Virus record (IMG/VR): IMGVR_UViG_3300027573_000129
Span: 1-21,893 of that record
Direction: 5' to 3' (one strand)
Origin: a virus
Length of the DNA stretch: 21,893 bases
The position numbers and the translations under genes were made by a program. The notes beneath the pieces were generated by a model. The model did not search any database. It saw only the letters and a program-made list of their open reading frames with translations, and was not told the origin of the DNA. Position 1 is the first letter of the stretch, and each line of letters begins with the position of its first letter. Positions 8,409-21,445 of the stretch are shown piece after piece.

Positions 8409-8849
8409 CTACTGTTCTTCGAGTTCGAGCGACCAGCCCACCGCGGCGCCCCACTCGTCGGTGTTGGTGCTGTAGCTGATGACCATCATGTCGAGCTGCG
8501 GCCGGAAATACGTCCATAGGCCCGCGGTGCGCGACGAGCCGCTGACGACGGTGCGCTGCGGCGAGCCGCCGGCTGTCAGGTATCCGAGCTCGCTGACGCA
8601 ATCGACCGTCACCGGCATGCCGGGCCACACGCCATCCAGCGCGGGCGCCTCCTGATCGGCGCAGGAGATCGTGCTCTTGTACTTGCGCATCTGCACCGGG
8701 CTGAGATCGATCAGCCCGCCATTCACGGTGCGCGCGATGGCGCCCGCGGCGTCGATAGGATCGAGCGTCTGTGAAAGTCCCCTGGCCGCGTAGGTCGGGA
8801 GGCCGGGGCCGCTGATGACGAGCAGGGTAGGAGAGGTGCTGGTGATCAT
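8409..8849 (-). CDS. Distal tail protein
   Basis: A 146-residue protein; ATG at 8849 overlaps the tape-measure stop as ATGA. It is mostly beta-like: TLLVISGPGLPTYAARGLSQ, then RTVNGGLIDLSPVQMRKYKS, a Cys/Asp segment STISCADQEAPALDGVWPGM, and a C-terminal YFRPQLDMMVISYSTNTDEW. No enzymatic residues stand out. In long-tailed phages the first gene after the tape measure usually encodes the distal tail ring (Dit) or an equivalent to which the hub binds; the small size and beta character are compatible. That role is inferred from position, not from a recognised Dit motif. Confidence 0.6.
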   Translation of the reverse strand: MITSTSPTLLVISGPGLPTYAARGLSQTLDPIDAAGAIARTVNGGLIDLSPVQMRKYKSTISCADQEAPALDGVWPGMPVTVDCVSELGYLTAGGSPQRTVVSGSSRTAGLWTYFRPQLDMMVISYSTNTDEWGAAVGWSLELEEQ

Positions 8850-10396
8850 TGCAGCAGCCCCGCGCGGCGCCCACCGGCCAGCATGCCGGCCCGCCGAGCC
8901 TCGCGCGTCAGCCCGCCGACAATGGCGTTGTCGGCTTGCAGCGCAAAGCTGCCGCCGGGAAACACAAGGTTAACTGTGGCGCCGCCGCCTGCCACCAGCC
9001 CGCCGCCGGCAAAGCTCGGGATCGAGCGCGCCCGCACCATGCCGCCCTGCGCGAAGCTGCCGAACGGGTTACGGAGGTTGTTGAGCGCCTCCATGAACTG
9101 CGGCCCCCAGCGCTCGACCGCCCGCGCCCGCATGACGTATTCGCCGTCGCTGAGCCGCGCGAGGATGCTGTCCGAAGTCGGGCCGCCGGGACCGCTGACG
9201 TAGCCGCCACCCGCCATGCCAGGGATCGGCGCCTCGGCGACTACCTGCGGCGGCGCATTGCCGGTGATCCACTTGATGCCATTGATGACGGCATTAATTG
9301 CGTCCATCACCTGGCCGAGCGAGGCCTTGGCGGCGTCGGCCAACGCCTGCCACGGGAGCGCGTTGGCGATCAGCTCGGTGAAGCCTTTCCAAACGTCGGC
9401 GATCTCTTTGAACTGTTCGACAAAGAAGCTCTTCAGGTTTTCAAGGGCCGTTGCCCAATTATTGAGCCCTTGGGTCAGCGCCGGATACCAATAGACCACC
9501 AGCGGTTGGATTATGCTTTCGATAGCGTCGCCCAGCCGGTCCCAAGCGGCCTCGTAATCATCCAGTCGTTTCTTCACTTCGGGGTCGAATGCCCGGCCGG
9601 TCTGTTGCAGTTGCTGGTTGATCTTGTCCAAGGCGCCGCTCTCGGCCAGCCGCGTGATCGAAATAGCTATTCGCGACCACTGCCTGCCGAACATTTCCGT
9701 GCCGACAGCCGCTGCCTGCAATGGGTTGGTGCCTTTCAGCTCGTTGAGCTTTTGGGCGAACTCGACCAGCGCTCTGCGGGCACCATCGGTTTGGTTGCTG
9801 AACCTGAACTGGTTGATGCCGAGTTCATCGAAGGCTTTGGCGGCCGGCGCGAACGCGTTCTGTTGTGCCTGGGACAGCGTGACGGAAAACTTCGCCAACG
9901 CCTGCCGCGCCAACTCGGTCTTGACGCCGGCACCTTCCATCACCTCCTGAAGAATCTTCACGTCCTGCCCCGAGAACGCCCCGCCCGTCGCCTCCGAGAT
10001 GTTGCGCAACTCGGTGAGGTTCTCGGTCACGCTGCCGATGGCTTTGGTGACGCCGGCCACCGACGCCACCGCAGTCGCAGCCGCGGCGGCCACACCTCGA
10101 AAAGCCCCGACAATCCCGGTGATGCCCTTGGCGGCGCCGACGCTGCTTGTGCCAAGTTCGTCTTGCGCCCGGCTCGCGTCGCGCAGCGAGCGGGAATACT
10201 TTCGCACCTCGGCCTCGGTGCTCTGAAAATCCTTCGACACCTTGTCGAGCCGGGTACGGTCGCCGGTCTTCGCCGCCTCGTCGGCCGCAAGCTTCAGCTC
10301 CTTGCGCATGTCGCGCAGGCTACGCTCGGCCAGCGCCAGGTCGGCGCGCATCTTGCTGCTGTCGGCGCCGATCTGGATCGTGAGATTATCGGGCAT
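8846..10396 (-). CDS. Tape measure protein (short)
   Basis: A 516-residue protein starting ATG at 10396, 3 nt after the stop of the chaperone extension. Residues about 15-80 form a charged coiled coil, 91-120 are hydrophobic (GITGIVGAFRGVAAAAATAV), and the rest is mainly helical. Near residue 400 is the motif GGYVSGPGGPTSDSILARLS followed by DGEYVMRARAVERWG, which is highly characteristic of the C-terminal region of phage tape measure/minor tail proteins. The protein sets tail length and passes into the host during infection. At 516 residues it is short for a siphovirus, predicting a tail of some 75-80 nm by the usual 0.15 nm per residue. No peptidase or lysozyme domain is visible. Confidence 0.85.
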   Translation of the reverse strand: MPDNLTIQIGADSSKMRADLALAERSLRDMRKELKLAADEAAKTGDRTRLDKVSKDFQSTEAEVRKYSRSLRDASRAQDELGTSSVGAAKGITGIVGAFRGVAAAAATAVASVAGVTKAIGSVTENLTELRNISEATGGAFSGQDVKILQEVMEGAGVKTELARQALAKFSVTLSQAQQNAFAPAAKAFDELGINQFRFSNQTDGARRALVEFAQKLNELKGTNPLQAAAVGTEMFGRQWSRIAISITRLAESGALDKINQQLQQTGRAFDPEVKKRLDDYEAAWDRLGDAIESIIQPLVVYWYPALTQGLNNWATALENLKSFFVEQFKEIADVWKGFTELIANALPWQALADAAKASLGQVMDAINAVINGIKWITGNAPPQVVAEAPIPGMAGGGYVSGPGGPTSDSILARLSDGEYVMRARAVERWGPQFMEALNNLRNPFGSFAQGGMVRARSIPSFAGGGLVAGGGATVNLVFPGGSFALQADNAIVGGLTREARRAGMLAGGRRAGLLQ

Positions 10397-10399
10397 CGG

Positions 10400-11007
10400 T
10401 CAGTCGTCCAGTTCCTTCAAGGTTGCCTTCGTCGCCTTGTCGTCGCCCTGCGCCGCCAGCCGGCCGAGCACGAGCTGCTCGCGCATCTCGCGTCGCCTGC
10501 GATGCCCTGCGATGGCCAGGAAGGCGCCTATTTGGCGAGGGGTATAGTCGAGCACGTCAGCGGCGTTGTGCCCGTGTGCGATCAACTGCTCGGCGGCGGC
10601 GGCGTATTCGTAGCCGCTGCCCTGCCAGCGCGGAGCCCGGCGCCGCCGTCGATCAGCCTTCCGAGCTTTTCCATAAAAGGGCCGAAACCGTCCGGCATCG
10701 TCAGGTCGAGCACCGCGCCGATGCACTCGGCGGCGTCATCGAGCGACATCGCGTCGGCGATATTGTCGGCCGCATCGGGCTGCCCGGCAGCCTCGGCGAT
10801 GATCGAGCCCACCGCATCCGGCGCAGCGATGACGACGGCCTCGAAGTCGAGCGCCGGGGCGCCCGCGGCGAACAGCTTTCGCAACTCGGGGAAGCGCAGC
10901 AATAGGCTCGCGATCTGCCGCACGCCGAGCCCGCGCAGCTCGACCTCGCTGCCGCCATTGATTCGGACGGTGCGGCGCTGCGGTACAATGTCGATCAGCG
11001 AAACCAT
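10400..11007 (-). CDS. Tail assembly chaperone, long form made by -1 frameshift
   Basis: The second frame (10400-10675) has no usable start downstream of 10681 and only a GTG at 10726 inside the first gene, yet it encodes a plausible protein segment: GSGYEYAAAAEQLIAHGHNA, then DYTPRQIGAFLAIAGHRRRR and a charged tail. It lies in -1 relative to the upstream gene, exactly as lambda gpT relative to gpG. Slippage at CCCTTTT would join 111 residues of the short form to 91 residues of this frame (202 in all), with the junction reading DGFGPF-YGKARK. By analogy the long form would bind tape measure and tube subunits during tail assembly. The frameshift itself is inferred. Confidence 0.75.
10582..11007 (-). 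CDS. Tail assembly chaperone, short form (gpG-like)
   Basis: A 141-residue protein between tail tube and tape measure, the standard place of the tail assembly chaperone. ATG at 11007 overlaps the tube gene stop as TGATG. It begins MVSLIDIVPQRRTVRINGG with an ELRGLGVRQIASLLLRFPEL segment (about 24-43), typical of this functional class, followed by an Ala/Asp-rich helical region (60-110). The last 30 residues, Gly/Ala/Arg then TNTPPPPSS, are low in complexity and encoded in the overlap with the second frame, as expected if they are a mere readthrough of the frameshift zone. It guides polymerisation of the tube around the tape measure and is absent from virions in related phages. Confidence 0.75.
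   Translation of the reverse strand: MVSLIDIVPQRRTVRINGGSEVELRGLGVRQIASLLLRFPELRKLFAAGAPALDFEAVVIAAPDAVGSIIAEAAGQPDAADNIADAMSLDDAAECIGAVLDLTMPDGFGPFMEKLGRLIDGGAGLRAGRAAATNTPPPPSS
10675..10681 (-). other. -1 ribosomal slippery site CCCTTTT
   Basis: In the chaperone frame the RNA reads GGC CCT TTT ATG; the heptamer C CCU UUU is a full X XXY YYZ match, allowing both tRNAs to re-pair in -1 (CCC UUU). It lies in the overlap of the two chaperone frames, about 93 nt before the short-form stop. A 6-bp stem (10640-10645 with 10626-10631, one G-U pair) lies 29 nt downstream, too far to be the usual stimulator, so a stimulator is not established. Confidence 0.65.
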
Positions 11008-11519
11008 CAGGGCGGCACCACCGCCTCGCCCATGAACGCGAGCATCAGGTTATCGTAGGTCCACTCGTCTAGCGTGAGATTGAGGGTCGCGTTCATCTCG
11101 TGCACGACTTCGAGATCCTTGGAGCGCACGCCGAAGCGCGCGGAGTAATGCGGGAGTGGGGTGATGTCGGGCGCAAACTCGAACACGGGCACGTTGCCGA
11201 GATCGCGGTACGCAACATCCGGGTCGATCATCACCGAAACGACGCCCTTGCCGATGTAGTAGTTGTCCACCAGCGGTGCCACGATAGCGGTGTCCGGGTG
11301 GGTGATAGTGCCAAAGATGCCCTCGTCATCGATCAGCACCGTGCCGGTCAACTCCATCTGGCCCCACTCGTCTTGAATGAGCCCGATGGCATTCGCCGGG
11401 CGAAACATCACCCGGTTAAGTTCCATAATGATATTTGGCCCGATATCGTTGGCACCCTCGAATTTTATCTTGCCGATGATCTCGCTCTTGGCGAGTACAT
11501 TGAACGTGCCGGCTGCCAT
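11007..11519 (-). CDS. Major tail tube protein
   Basis: A 170-residue protein immediately before the chaperone and tape measure genes. Start ATG at 11519 is fixed by AAAGGAG 6 nt upstream. The protein is strand-rich with few Cys, as expected for a tube subunit: it opens MAAGTFNVLAKSEIIGKIKF, continues with TGTVLIDDEGIFGTITHPDT and VSVMIDPDVAYRDLGNVPVF, and ends EWTYDNLMLAFMGEAVVPP. The strongest ribosome binding site in this part of the operon precedes it, fitting a product made in many copies. Assignment rests on position and beta character; I do not recognise the precise family. Confidence 0.75.
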   Translation of the reverse strand: MAAGTFNVLAKSEIIGKIKFEGANDIGPNIIMELNRVMFRPANAIGLIQDEWGQMELTGTVLIDDEGIFGTITHPDTAIVAPLVDNYYIGKGVVSVMIDPDVAYRDLGNVPVFEFAPDITPLPHYSARFGVRSKDLEVVHEMNATLNLTLDEWTYDNLMLAFMGEAVVPP

Positions 11520-16171: not shown

Positions 16172-18121
16172 TCACCAACTCACCGATTGCGTCCACGCCA
16201 CCGTGCCGGTGCGCCGCAGCCCCCAGTTCATCGGCAGGATCATCCGAAGCGCGAGGCTGTCAGTCTGGAACATCGAGCGGCTCGGGCTGGCGACGACACC
16301 GGAACCCTGCGCGCCGGTCACCAGTTGCAGCGGCGTCGTGTCCTCGAAATGCAGGGTCGCCTGGTCGGACACATCGAAGCGGGGATCATCTCCCGTCACC
16401 GACATGAAATCGTCGGCGTTGAGCAGGATCACCATCCCCGCCGTTACGGTGCTCGACACGATCACCGGGTAGCCCATCAGGGTGTTGCTGGTGATCTCGC
16501 TGCGGAACGGGAAATCCGTTGCCGCGGTGCCCTGCGTCAGCAGGATCGAGTTCTTTTGCACCGGGTGCATGATCCACACCGGCTTGACGAAGGCATTCGC
16601 CGTCGCCAACACCGCGGTCAGCGCTTTGATATCGCCGACCAGCGCCGCAAACCCGCCGCCCGCGGTTGCCGTCGTGGCGCTGACGTTGTAGCGGATGCCG
16701 GCCGGGCGGATGGCGCTCGATATGATGTTGTCGATCAGCACCGAATCCACCGACGCCTGCGTGTCGTCCTGAATCAGTTGACGCAGGATCACCTCGATTT
16801 GCGGCGTCGAATGCTCGGCGATCTCGCGGGTGTAGCTCACGATGACGGCCATCTTTTTCAAGCCGAGCGTAATCGGCGTGAAGGCGGCCTGCCGCACCGG
16901 GATGGGCGCACCTTCCGCGACGAACGAGCCCGCCACGGTCGGCGTCGCCACCCGTGTCGGCATGCTGATCTGAGCAAACCGCCCCAAGGTCGCCCGGAAC
17001 CCGTAGGGCGCCAGCAACCCATAAATGCCGCCCGGCAACAGCGTGTTGACGAACTCGCCGTACTGCGTCGCAGCCAGCGTGTCGGCCCATCCGCTCGTCG
17101 TCGTAGTGGCCGGCGCCGTCGCCGTCCTGACGTACCAGTCGTGCGTCGCCTTGGTTACGTCGAAGTCGCCATAGCTGCCGTAAATGTCAGCCATCACCTT
17201 GTCGAGCGGCTCGTGCCTGACATGGCTCAGCACCTTGCCGACGCAGTGCCGGATGTAGAGAAAGCCCGGCTCCTCCTGCTTCTTCGGGATGGCCCACGAT
17301 TTCGGCGCCGCCGCCGGCAGCGGCTGGTTCGGCGCGTATACCGTCGTGCGGCTGGCCGGCACGGTGATCGGCTCGGCCTCGCCGCCCAGCGCCTTCTCGG
17401 CCCGCTCCCACGTCGTGATCTTGCCCTGTACCTCCTCGATCTTCGCCGTCAGGTCCGACAGCCGGCTAAGGTCGTTGTCGGGATCGACGCCGCCCATCTG
17501 GTCGCGCAATGCCACAAGCTCCTGCTGCGCGCCGGTAATTCTCTCGCTGATGTTCATGGGTTTCTGCTTTCGCGATACGTCACCTCGTTTGGCATGCACG
17601 CCATGAAACCCGCCCGTCGCCACCCGCTCTCCATCGGCATGCACGCCGAAGATCAGGCTTTGCCCTTGCGGGGAGATCCCGAGCGATTTCGCAATCGCCA
17701 GGGCATTCGGATTGGCGCCGACGCTGACGAGCGAACACTCGACCAACTCGGCTTCGAGAAAGCGGGTGCCGCCATTCTTCAGCGGCTCGAAATTGTCGCT
17801 GTGAAACCCGACGCTGACAGCGCGTGCGATGCCGGCCTTCACCAGCGCGTGGATCTCGCGCAACCGCTCGGACACCGGTTCCACCAGATCGAGCCAGCCG
17901 GTCAGCCGCCCCTTGCGGACGCCCACGTCGCGCCAGTGCCCGATCATGAATTTCGGGTCGTGCCCGAACAGCGCCACCGGGTGCTTGCGGAAGTTGTCGA
18001 GCTGCCAGCCCTGCGGCTCGATGATGTCGCCCATCCGGTCCAGGCTGGCATCGCTCATCACATATTCGAGCGGATCGTCGGCAGGCGGCGGCGCCGCCGA
18101 CCGCTTTTGTCGGATCTGCAT
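16172..18121 (-). CDS. Prohead protease-major capsid protein fusion (HK97 type)
   Basis: A 649-residue protein starting ATG at 18121, GGGAG 7 nt upstream. Residues 1-160 are a prohead protease of the HK97/U35 (S78) type: His54 in VALFGHD, Ser103 in IARAVSVGF, and Glu125/Glu128 in AELVECSLVSVGANPNA, the positions expected for its Ser-His-Glu triad. Residues about 160-190 form a linker, then 191-245 a coiled-coil delta-like region (ISERITGAQQELVALRDQMG). From about 300 on is the HK97-fold capsid protein, with PTRVATPTVAGSFVAEGAPI, then IVSYTREIAEHSTPQIEVIL and NTLMGYPVIVSSTV. An internal ATG at 17557 lacks a good ribosome site. Presumably the protease frees the capsid part during maturation. 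No ATG or stop separates the domains. Confidence 0.9.
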   Translation of the reverse strand: MQIRQKRSAAPPPADDPLEYVMSDASLDRMGDIIEPQGWQLDNFRKHPVALFGHDPKFMIGHWRDVGVRKGRLTGWLDLVEPVSERLREIHALVKAGIARAVSVGFHSDNFEPLKNGGTRFLEAELVECSLVSVGANPNALAIAKSLGISPQGQSLIFGVHADGERVATGGFHGVHAKRGDVSRKQKPMNISERITGAQQELVALRDQMGGVDPDNDLSRLSDLTAKIEEVQGKITTWERAEKALGGEAEPITVPASRTTVYAPNQPLPAAAPKSWAIPKKQEEPGFLYIRHCVGKVLSHVRHEPLDKVMADIYGSYGDFDVTKATHDWYVRTATAPATTTTSGWADTLAATQYGEFVNTLLPGGIYGLLAPYGFRATLGRFAQISMPTRVATPTVAGSFVAEGAPIPVRQAAFTPITLGLKKMAVIVSYTREIAEHSTPQIEVILRQLIQDDTQASVDSVLIDNIISSAIRPAGIRYNVSATTATAGGGFAALVGDIKALTAVLATANAFVKPVWIMHPVQKNSILLTQGTAATDFPFRSEITSNTLMGYPVIVSSTVTAGMVILLNADDFMSVTGDDPRFDVSDQATLHFEDTTPLQLVTGAQGSGVVASPSRSMFQTDSLALRMILPMNWGLRRTGTVAWTQSVSW

Positions 18122-19436: not shown

Positions 19437-20987
19437 TCAGACAATCATGGTCTCGAGGTTTACCCGGCCGCGCGCCAGCGGCACCACGCCGCGCGCCATC
19501 TCCAATGCCACCATGCCGTCGATGCGGCTCGATGACAGCGCCTTGTGGAGCTTGCGATTGCCCGCGGCATCGCTCCACACCACGGCACCAGCCGCATTCA
19601 TCGTCAGCACCGGGTGCATCCCGTGCGCCAATTTCTTGTTCAGCAGATCACTCTCAAGCTCGCGCAGCGCCGGGCTCATGCTCGCCACGCCCTGCCCGAA
19701 CTCCACGAACTTCGCCATGTCGGCCTCGCCGAAGCCAACCTTCGCCAGCCACGGTTTCAGATGCTTCCAGCCCCACCTGTCAAAACCAATCTTACGCACG
19801 TCATATCGTGCAAACACATCGCGTAAATACTCAGCGACAAACTCATATTCGACGCTCTGGCCGGGAGCGGTATGCAAATACCCTTCCTTGTGCCACTGGT
19901 CATACGGCACCCGGTCGGCTCGAGCTTTCGTTGAAAGCCCTTGGCCCGGCAGCCAGAAGGTCGGGTGTACCTGCCATACGCCACCCACATCGCCGATCAG
20001 CACCAGCGCCGTGAGATCCGCCACGCTCGACAGATCGAGCCCGCCATACACCGGCACGCCGTCTATCGGCAGCGGCGCCGCACCGCACGACGCCCAAACG
20101 CTCGCCGACACAAACGGGTTGTTGGCTTCTACCCGCCGATTGCAAATGAGGTTCTCGTATTCCGCCTGTCGCGACGGCATACGCTTTGCGTCTGCCGCCA
20201 TAGCCAGCACTTCGTCTTTGTTCATAAAGATATCGAAGGCTGGGTTGGCTGCTCGTATCGCCTCCTCGGAAAACGGGTCCATTTCAGCCGGCGCAGATTG
20301 AAACCGGAGCACCGTCCTTGGATCGTGACCAGCCGCTGCGTCGTCAATCAGGATCGATAGCAAGTCATTCTCTGTCGAAGCCTGCGTGCTGATGATGATC
20401 GACAACGGTTGCGACTGCGCACCCGTGGCCGTCTCCAGCGCCTCATACAAACTCGATCTCGGCCCGCGCACTTGTCCTAACTCATCGAACAATGTCAGCA
20501 CCGGGCTTAGTCCAAACGCCGTGGTTACTTCCGCCGACAGCGCACGGTACAGCGTTCCAAGATCACGGCAGATAAGCTGCTTGGCCGTATCCCGGATGGT
20601 AACGCATTCGGACAATATCGGATTCAGACGCACAATTTTTGCAGCGAGGGAAAAGATTATTCCCGCCTGCTCCCGCGATTGCGCGGCGCTGTAAAGCTGG
20701 CTATTCGGTTTGGCCTCCGGTCCACAGAGGTGCAGCAGAAGGATCAGCGCACTCTCGGTAGTCTTTGCATTCTTGCGCCCGCGGGAAATGATCGCTCGGC
20801 GCGTGCCGGCCGGATTGTCGTAAATTGCCCGAAAGTCGTCCCTCATAAACGCCGCCATCTTCAGCGGCTGGCCGACATACGTCCCCTCGGGAACCCGACA
20901 AAACTCCTCTACCCATTTAATGTTTCTTTCGGCGCGCGTTTCTTGTACGGCCGGCGGTTTGCTAGTTGCTCGCCTACCGTCGCCCAT
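19437..20987 (-). CDS. terL: Terminase large subunit (Terminase_1/YmfN type)
   Basis: A 516-residue packaging motor from ATG at 20987; a TTG at 20993 would add two residues. The conserved opening RNIKWVEEFCRVPEGTYVGQ (21-40) shows the N terminus is needed even though it overlaps the HNH gene. Walker A is the variant SRGRKNAKT (68-76), Walker B is VLTLFDE (163-169), with the catalytic Glu169. The C-terminal nuclease has acidic residues Asp318 in GGLDLS, Asp403 in GFDRWGW and Asp490 in RIDGMVALEMA. It uses ATP to translocate DNA into the prohead and cuts concatemers. The stop overlaps the TTG alternative of the next gene. Confidence 0.93.
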   Translation of the reverse strand: MGDGRRATSKPPAVQETRAERNIKWVEEFCRVPEGTYVGQPLKMAAFMRDDFRAIYDNPAGTRRAIISRGRKNAKTTESALILLLHLCGPEAKPNSQLYSAAQSREQAGIIFSLAAKIVRLNPILSECVTIRDTAKQLICRDLGTLYRALSAEVTTAFGLSPVLTLFDELGQVRGPRSSLYEALETATGAQSQPLSIIISTQASTENDLLSILIDDAAAGHDPRTVLRFQSAPAEMDPFSEEAIRAANPAFDIFMNKDEVLAMAADAKRMPSRQAEYENLICNRRVEANNPFVSASVWASCGAAPLPIDGVPVYGGLDLSSVADLTALVLIGDVGGVWQVHPTFWLPGQGLSTKARADRVPYDQWHKEGYLHTAPGQSVEYEFVAEYLRDVFARYDVRKIGFDRWGWKHLKPWLAKVGFGEADMAKFVEFGQGVASMSPALRELESDLLNKKLAHGMHPVLTMNAAGAVVWSDAAGNRKLHKALSSSRIDGMVALEMARGVVPLARGRVNLETMIV

Positions 20988-21445
20988 CGACAATTCCCAG
21001 GTTCATAATCACCGTTAGTGTCTATCCGGTCGAGCGAGAGCCCAATCGGTGGCTCGCCCATGTCGCAAAGAAAGTTCTCGAATGTATCCCATCGCTGGCA
21101 AACCTTGATACCACGCCCACCGTAATATTCGAATGCATGGTTTTTTGCGTCCTGGCATCTCTGCCGCATGCCATACCAAGTGGTATAAGCTCGCGTCTGC
21201 CTGCGCGCCGCAGTGTGTCCGTGCTTCAGCCTCGATGTCAGTCCGAAGCCAGCAACAACTTCCTTAAGAAGGCAACCGCACGACCGTGTATGCCCAGTGC
21301 GCAGATGCCCACCGCTGACATTGCAGTACTTTCCGCAGTCGCACAAACAGAGCCATCTTGCCTGGCCATCTGCCGCGCGGCCTACCTGGGCTATAACTAG
21401 AAGGCGACCGAACCGCTTTCTTTGTAATGCAATAACCCGAGCCAC
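20909..21445 (-). CDS. HNH endonuclease with Cys-rich N-terminal finger (AP2/HNH-like)
   Basis: A 178-residue protein from GTG at 21445, 9 nt after the terminase small subunit stop; no nearby ATG is in frame. Residues 31-58 carry the finger W.CLCDCGKYC followed by TGHTRSCGC, and residues 88-165 the phage HNH core: TTWYGMRQRC, YYGGRGIKVCQRW, SLDRIDTNGDYEPGNCRWAT and EQLANRR. This is the family of standalone homing-type HNH proteins. Its last 26 codons overlap the terminase large subunit in another frame. Position between the terminase subunits could mean a role in packaging, as for some HNH partners, but the architecture is more like a selfish homing endonuclease. Confidence 0.85.
   Translation of the reverse strand: MARVIALQRKRFGRLLVIAQVGRAADGQARWLCLCDCGKYCNVSGGHLRTGHTRSCGCLLKEVVAGFGLTSRLKHGHTAARRQTRAYTTWYGMRQRCQDAKNHAFEYYGGRGIKVCQRWDTFENFLCDMGEPPIGLSLDRIDTNGDYEPGNCRWATVGEQLANRRPYKKRAPKETLNG

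Follow-up and report, generated by a model that had tools for sequence, protein, structure and literature searches.

The window, by which we mean the whole stretch of 21,893 nucleotides analysed here, comes from a virus of bacteria; a scan of genome contigs for its host returned, among the matches listed, a distant one in a Planctomycetota assembly. On the minus strand of the window, two overlapping frames, here called G and T, are flanked by a major tail protein gene and a tape measure gene, and the gene order major tail – G/T – tape measure follows from the PHROG assignment of both neighbours. The features of the locus are as follows, in the order in which they are read.

11007–11519, minus strand: major tail protein, the upstream neighbour, matching PHROG 807 'major tail protein with Ig-like domain' (E 2.9e-24)
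10582–11007, minus strand: G, open frame for the zero-frame tail assembly chaperone of 141 aa, the short product
10675–10681, minus strand: slippery heptamer C_CCT_TTT in zero-frame register, by direct reading; CCCTTTN is invariant in 63 distinct homologues
10400–10681, minus strand: T, the part read in the -1 frame from the heptamer onwards, 91 aa beyond the shared ...GPF, stop codon included
10400–11007, minus strand: GT, the long product predicted from its parts to arise by a -1 shift (111 + 91 = 202 aa)
8846–10396, minus strand: tape measure protein, the downstream neighbour, matching many PHROG tape-measure families

G opens with the ATG at 11007 on the minus strand, while the ATG of the tape measure gene lies just beyond the stop codon of T (...GAC TGA CCG ATG). 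The G protein matches Pfam family PF23789 (Pre_tape_measure) with 53.5 bits against a curated cut-off of 27, as well as PHROG 5260 'tail protein'. Each of the 19 aligned members of the G family hits a tail family of PHROG; for six of them this family is named tail assembly chaperone. The predicted structure of T is confident and helical; a Pfam search assigned T to no family and its model gave no usable match among known folds. A sequence search against solved structures found no convincing match for either G or the T domain.

Two further frames on the minus strand of the window deserve mention. A single frame of 649 aa at 16172–18121 carries a prohead protease domain (PF04586, residues 46–143) together with an HK97-type capsid domain (PF05065, residues 385–590), a protease-capsid fusion comparable to PHROG 617. 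At 20909–21445, a 178-aa frame with a Cys-rich N-terminal half overlaps the start of the large terminase gene and, judged by eye, looks like a homing-endonuclease-type insertion.

The heptamer and the two frames

Direct reading from the G start at 11007 gives the junction ...GAC GGT TTC GGC CCT TTT ATG GAA... in the zero frame of the minus strand, with CCT at 10680–10678 and TTT at 10677–10675, and thus places C_CCT_TTT in the X_XXY_YYZ register. The initial annotation had located CCCTTTT at 10681–10675 in the zero frame and the second frame at -1, and both assignments are borne out: the open stretch of T begins 54 nt 5' of the heptamer and runs to the T stop codon at 10400. The peptide that a -1 reading of the junction would yield (GPF|YGK...) likewise matches the one given before. 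The coding strand of the window contains a single CCCTTT, where shuffles give 4.75 expected copies on both strands together, and in the homologous loci described below it is found in phase away from the slip site only twice in 44,814 codons.

Beyond the heptamer, the end of G had been described as a low-complexity Pro/Ala tail. It is indeed rich in Pro and Ala, but this stretch is largely the antiphase reading of a conserved block of T, GYEYAAAAEQL, and the composition of the G end is largely a by-product of that block.

Conservation of the junction among homologues

In order to follow the junction through related viruses, two scans of IMG/VR with G and T were made, which gave 47 loci with 31 sequences distinct at the junction; in all 31, T lies at -1 and CCCTTT[T/C/A] is in register. 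Two further scans with alignments brought the total to 63 distinct junctions, and many of these homologues were retrieved by the N-terminus of G, that is, independently of the junction. T at -1 together with CCCTTTN was found in 63 out of 63, the variants being CCCTTTC (23), CCCTTTT (20), CCCTTTA (19) and CCCTTTG (1). The operon alignment suggested by the initial annotation therefore shows both the heptamer and the -1 frame to be conserved in every distinct homologue; neither a separate T gene nor an overlap that had lost the heptamer was encountered in the same set.

The residues encoded at the site are less constant than the bases. The codon before the invariant Pro specifies A, D, G, V, R, S, P or N in the 63 homologues and always ends in C, while the codon after it encodes Phe (TTT or TTC) in 43 and Leu (TTA or TTG) in 20. 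Since the residues vary while the bases stay fixed, it is the slippery bases, beyond any requirement of the protein, that are conserved.

We also searched the -1 frame for codons from which T could be opened, before the heptamer and from there to the conserved Trp at the start of T. No ATG, GTG or TTG able to do so is present in 25 of the 64 sequences (window included). The earlier claim that T lacks a start of its own does not hold to the letter for the window, which has a GTG at 10726, 5' of the heptamer, and a TTG within the conserved helix of T; it is the homologues that close this loophole. Moreover, two of them (L005 and L015) display a -1-frame stop codon flush against the heptamer, so that T can be entered there only from G. 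The T domain itself has 25 invariant columns across 23 sequences.

Substitution at third codon positions follows the same junction. In the zero frame upstream of the heptamer it amounts to 0.45 and 0.35, and in the -1 frame from +40 nt to 0.29–0.40. Zero-frame third positions are the most variable ones upstream and for about 25 nt past the heptamer, -1-frame third positions from about 40 nt onwards, and both frames are coding in the stretch between about 25 and 40 nt past the heptamer. Within about 40 nt of the heptamer, coding constraint thus moves from the zero frame to the -1 frame.

Sequences flanking the heptamer

A close downstream hairpin had been described as not apparent, with a 6-bp stem 29 nt away. 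A stem can in fact begin about 9 nt after the heptamer (10666–10661 paired with 10640–10635), but it is not significant, as the downstream region folds no better than its shuffles (z -0.9; z +0.3 for an 85-nt fold). Among the homologues, RNAalifold on 27 sequences gave no covarying downstream stem, and folding of 37 non-redundant sequences at offsets of 0–20 nt past the heptamer gave no conserved one (mean z -0.61 to +0.39).

On the 5' side, one clade (L014, L017, L026 and others) carries a Shine-Dalgarno (SD)-like stretch, GGCGGTGT or GGAGGTGT, with pairing energies of -9.6 to -14.1 kcal/mol over a background of about -3.3; the corresponding place in the window is 10682–10700. There the stretch is moderate (-6.9, within the lowest 9% of its own gene). 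An SD-like stretch upstream of the heptamer is absent from the other clades and is not family-wide. Its distance to the heptamer is about 5–6 nt, and SD-like stimulators of -1 frameshifting usually act from a longer spacing than this. The Gly codon within the stretch is GGT in 33 of the 64 sequences, and GGT makes up 10% of the Gly codons of the window.

Origin of the -1 extension and comparison with known slip sites

The sequence data argue strongly for a programmed -1 frameshift that yields two tail assembly chaperones, G and GT, from one message, and we regard this as very probably correct. The sequences themselves show the anatomy of the junction, its conservation and the switch of coding constraint; the same pair in distant annotated phages and the high efficiency of C_CC.U_UU.Y in E. 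coli, both described below, add support. Weighing against it are the lack of a conserved downstream hairpin in the folds above, an SD-like stretch that is not shared by the whole family, and the CCCTTTA and CCCTTTG homologues, whose heptamers fall outside the class most efficient in E. coli. We infer slippage, its efficiency and the roles of both products as follows. Most ribosomes would pass the heptamer in the zero frame and make the 141-aa G, while a minority would slip, the tRNA-Pro on CCU in the P site and the tRNA-Phe on UUU in the A site re-pairing with CCC and UUU, and would continue in the -1 frame into a fused GT protein of about 202 aa. As in the lambda gpG/gpGT pair, coating of the tape measure protein would fall to G and recruitment of the major tail protein to the T domain.

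Could T instead be a separate gene, expressed from its own start codon through coupling or internal initiation? The -1-frame GTG at 10726 and the TTG within T would lend themselves to this in the window, yet the 25 sequences that offer no ATG, GTG or TTG before the conserved Trp, and the stop codons abutting the heptamer in L005 and L015, contradict it, and it leaves the invariance of CCCTTT without a reason; we consider it very unlikely. An invariant Pro and a common Phe at the site might also suggest that the heptamer is kept merely for Gly/Asp-Pro-Phe in the protein, with the overlap being incidental. This has next to no probability, as eight different residues precede the Pro and yet the preceding base is always C, Phe alternates with Leu (TTA) while TTT, TTA, TTC and TTG all keep the TT plus the T from the register of the previous codon, and the Pro is always CCT, which is a minor codon (it accounts for 6% of the Pro codons of the window and for 12.6% of those in relatives). 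Variable residues around fixed bases and an invariant CCT contradict it.

One gene disrupted by a mutation or a sequencing error would look the same, since one base change in a fused frame is all that is needed, but all 63 distinct homologues, which stem from many metagenomes, have the identical break at this place, as do isolated phages; this contradicts such an accident and makes it vanishingly improbable. Slippage of the RNA polymerase, or a -2/+1 event, has a precedent in the -2 shift reported for phage 9g on CCCUUUUUUU (PMC4276943), and in Vibrio phage KarBoss the frame call puts T off -1. Against this, the run at our junction is just CCCTTTT, and all close homologues have T at -1. Transcriptional slippage usually occurs on A or T runs longer than CCCTTTT. 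An origin of this kind is extremely unlikely, and programmed -1 frameshifting by the ribosome stays the preferred reading.

The tail-chaperone junction is a well-supported but unremarkable case of a frameshift device already known from phages, and it leaves the understanding of frameshifting unchanged. In annotation, the T extension will be missed or misnamed by gene callers. Furthermore, the 63 distinct junctions make up a large and clean collection of natural variants: the slippery bases stay the same throughout, and the residues encoded there change. A broader proposal, that C_CCU_UUN has become the fixed slip site of a widespread lineage of soil and environmental phages and works there with no conserved RNA stimulator, appears rather doubtful to us.

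The initial annotation had placed the heptamer outside the commonly cited set, which is contradicted by two published cases. C_CCU_UUU is the natural -1 frameshift site of West Nile virus (PMC11507841), identical in all seven bases, although that site belongs to a eukaryotic RNA virus with its own downstream structure and lies in an unrelated gene. In E. coli, where all 64 heptamers were tested, H_HH.U_UU.Y, including C_CC.U_UU.Y, is among the most efficient motifs (PMC4066793). CCCUUUU and CCCUUUC fall inside this efficient class, CCCTTTA (19 of 63) and CCCTTTG (1 of 63) outside it. Under the rather doubtful proposal above, the roughly 30% of members with UUA in the A site might point to different slippage rules in the host or to an unrecognised stimulator. 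The heptamer of the window is uncommon among the phage cases examined and experimentally validated elsewhere. The G/T junction of phage 9g (PMC4276943) shares the CCCUUU core at a tail chaperone junction, and differs in that its shift is reported as -2 and its U run is longer (CCCUUUUUUU).

The comparison with lambda G-GT made at the outset is sustained by the gene order, the -1 frame and a heptamer invariant in 63 homologues. As with lambda gpG/gpGT, the pair precedes the tape measure gene, and a -1 shift late in the first frame would give a long, minor fusion; the lambda heptamer, in contrast, is G_GGA_AAG, and the searches made gave no detectable sequence match of G/T to lambda G/T. The closest solved structure to the AlphaFold model of G (mean pLDDT 72) is the HK97 tail assembly chaperone 2OB9, with Z 6.5 over 87 residues at 3.1 A, a moderate value within the range that can reflect a common arrangement; the runner-up scores Z 3.1. 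Sequence identity is 10%, and the model gives supportive but moderate evidence that G may adopt an HK97-type fold.

Distant phage relatives include Serratia phage Smarc1 and Proteus phage Saba (Casjensviridae), which have a PF23789 G, the same gene order and T in -1, and whose records already annotate the joined frameshift product; their overlap holds A_AAA_AAG, where the lineage of the window has C_CCT_TTN. Across eight annotated phage records, the overlap contains A_AAA_AAG or T_TTT_TTY/T as its zero-frame heptamer, and T is at -1 in seven. The exception is KarBoss (L057): its overlap contains AAAAAAG, yet its T-like frame is off -1 relative to G, which may reflect a -2/+1 shift or an error in the sequence. 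Altogether, related phage lineages place different heptamers (CCCTTTN, AAAAAAG, TTTTTTY) in the same gene overlap.
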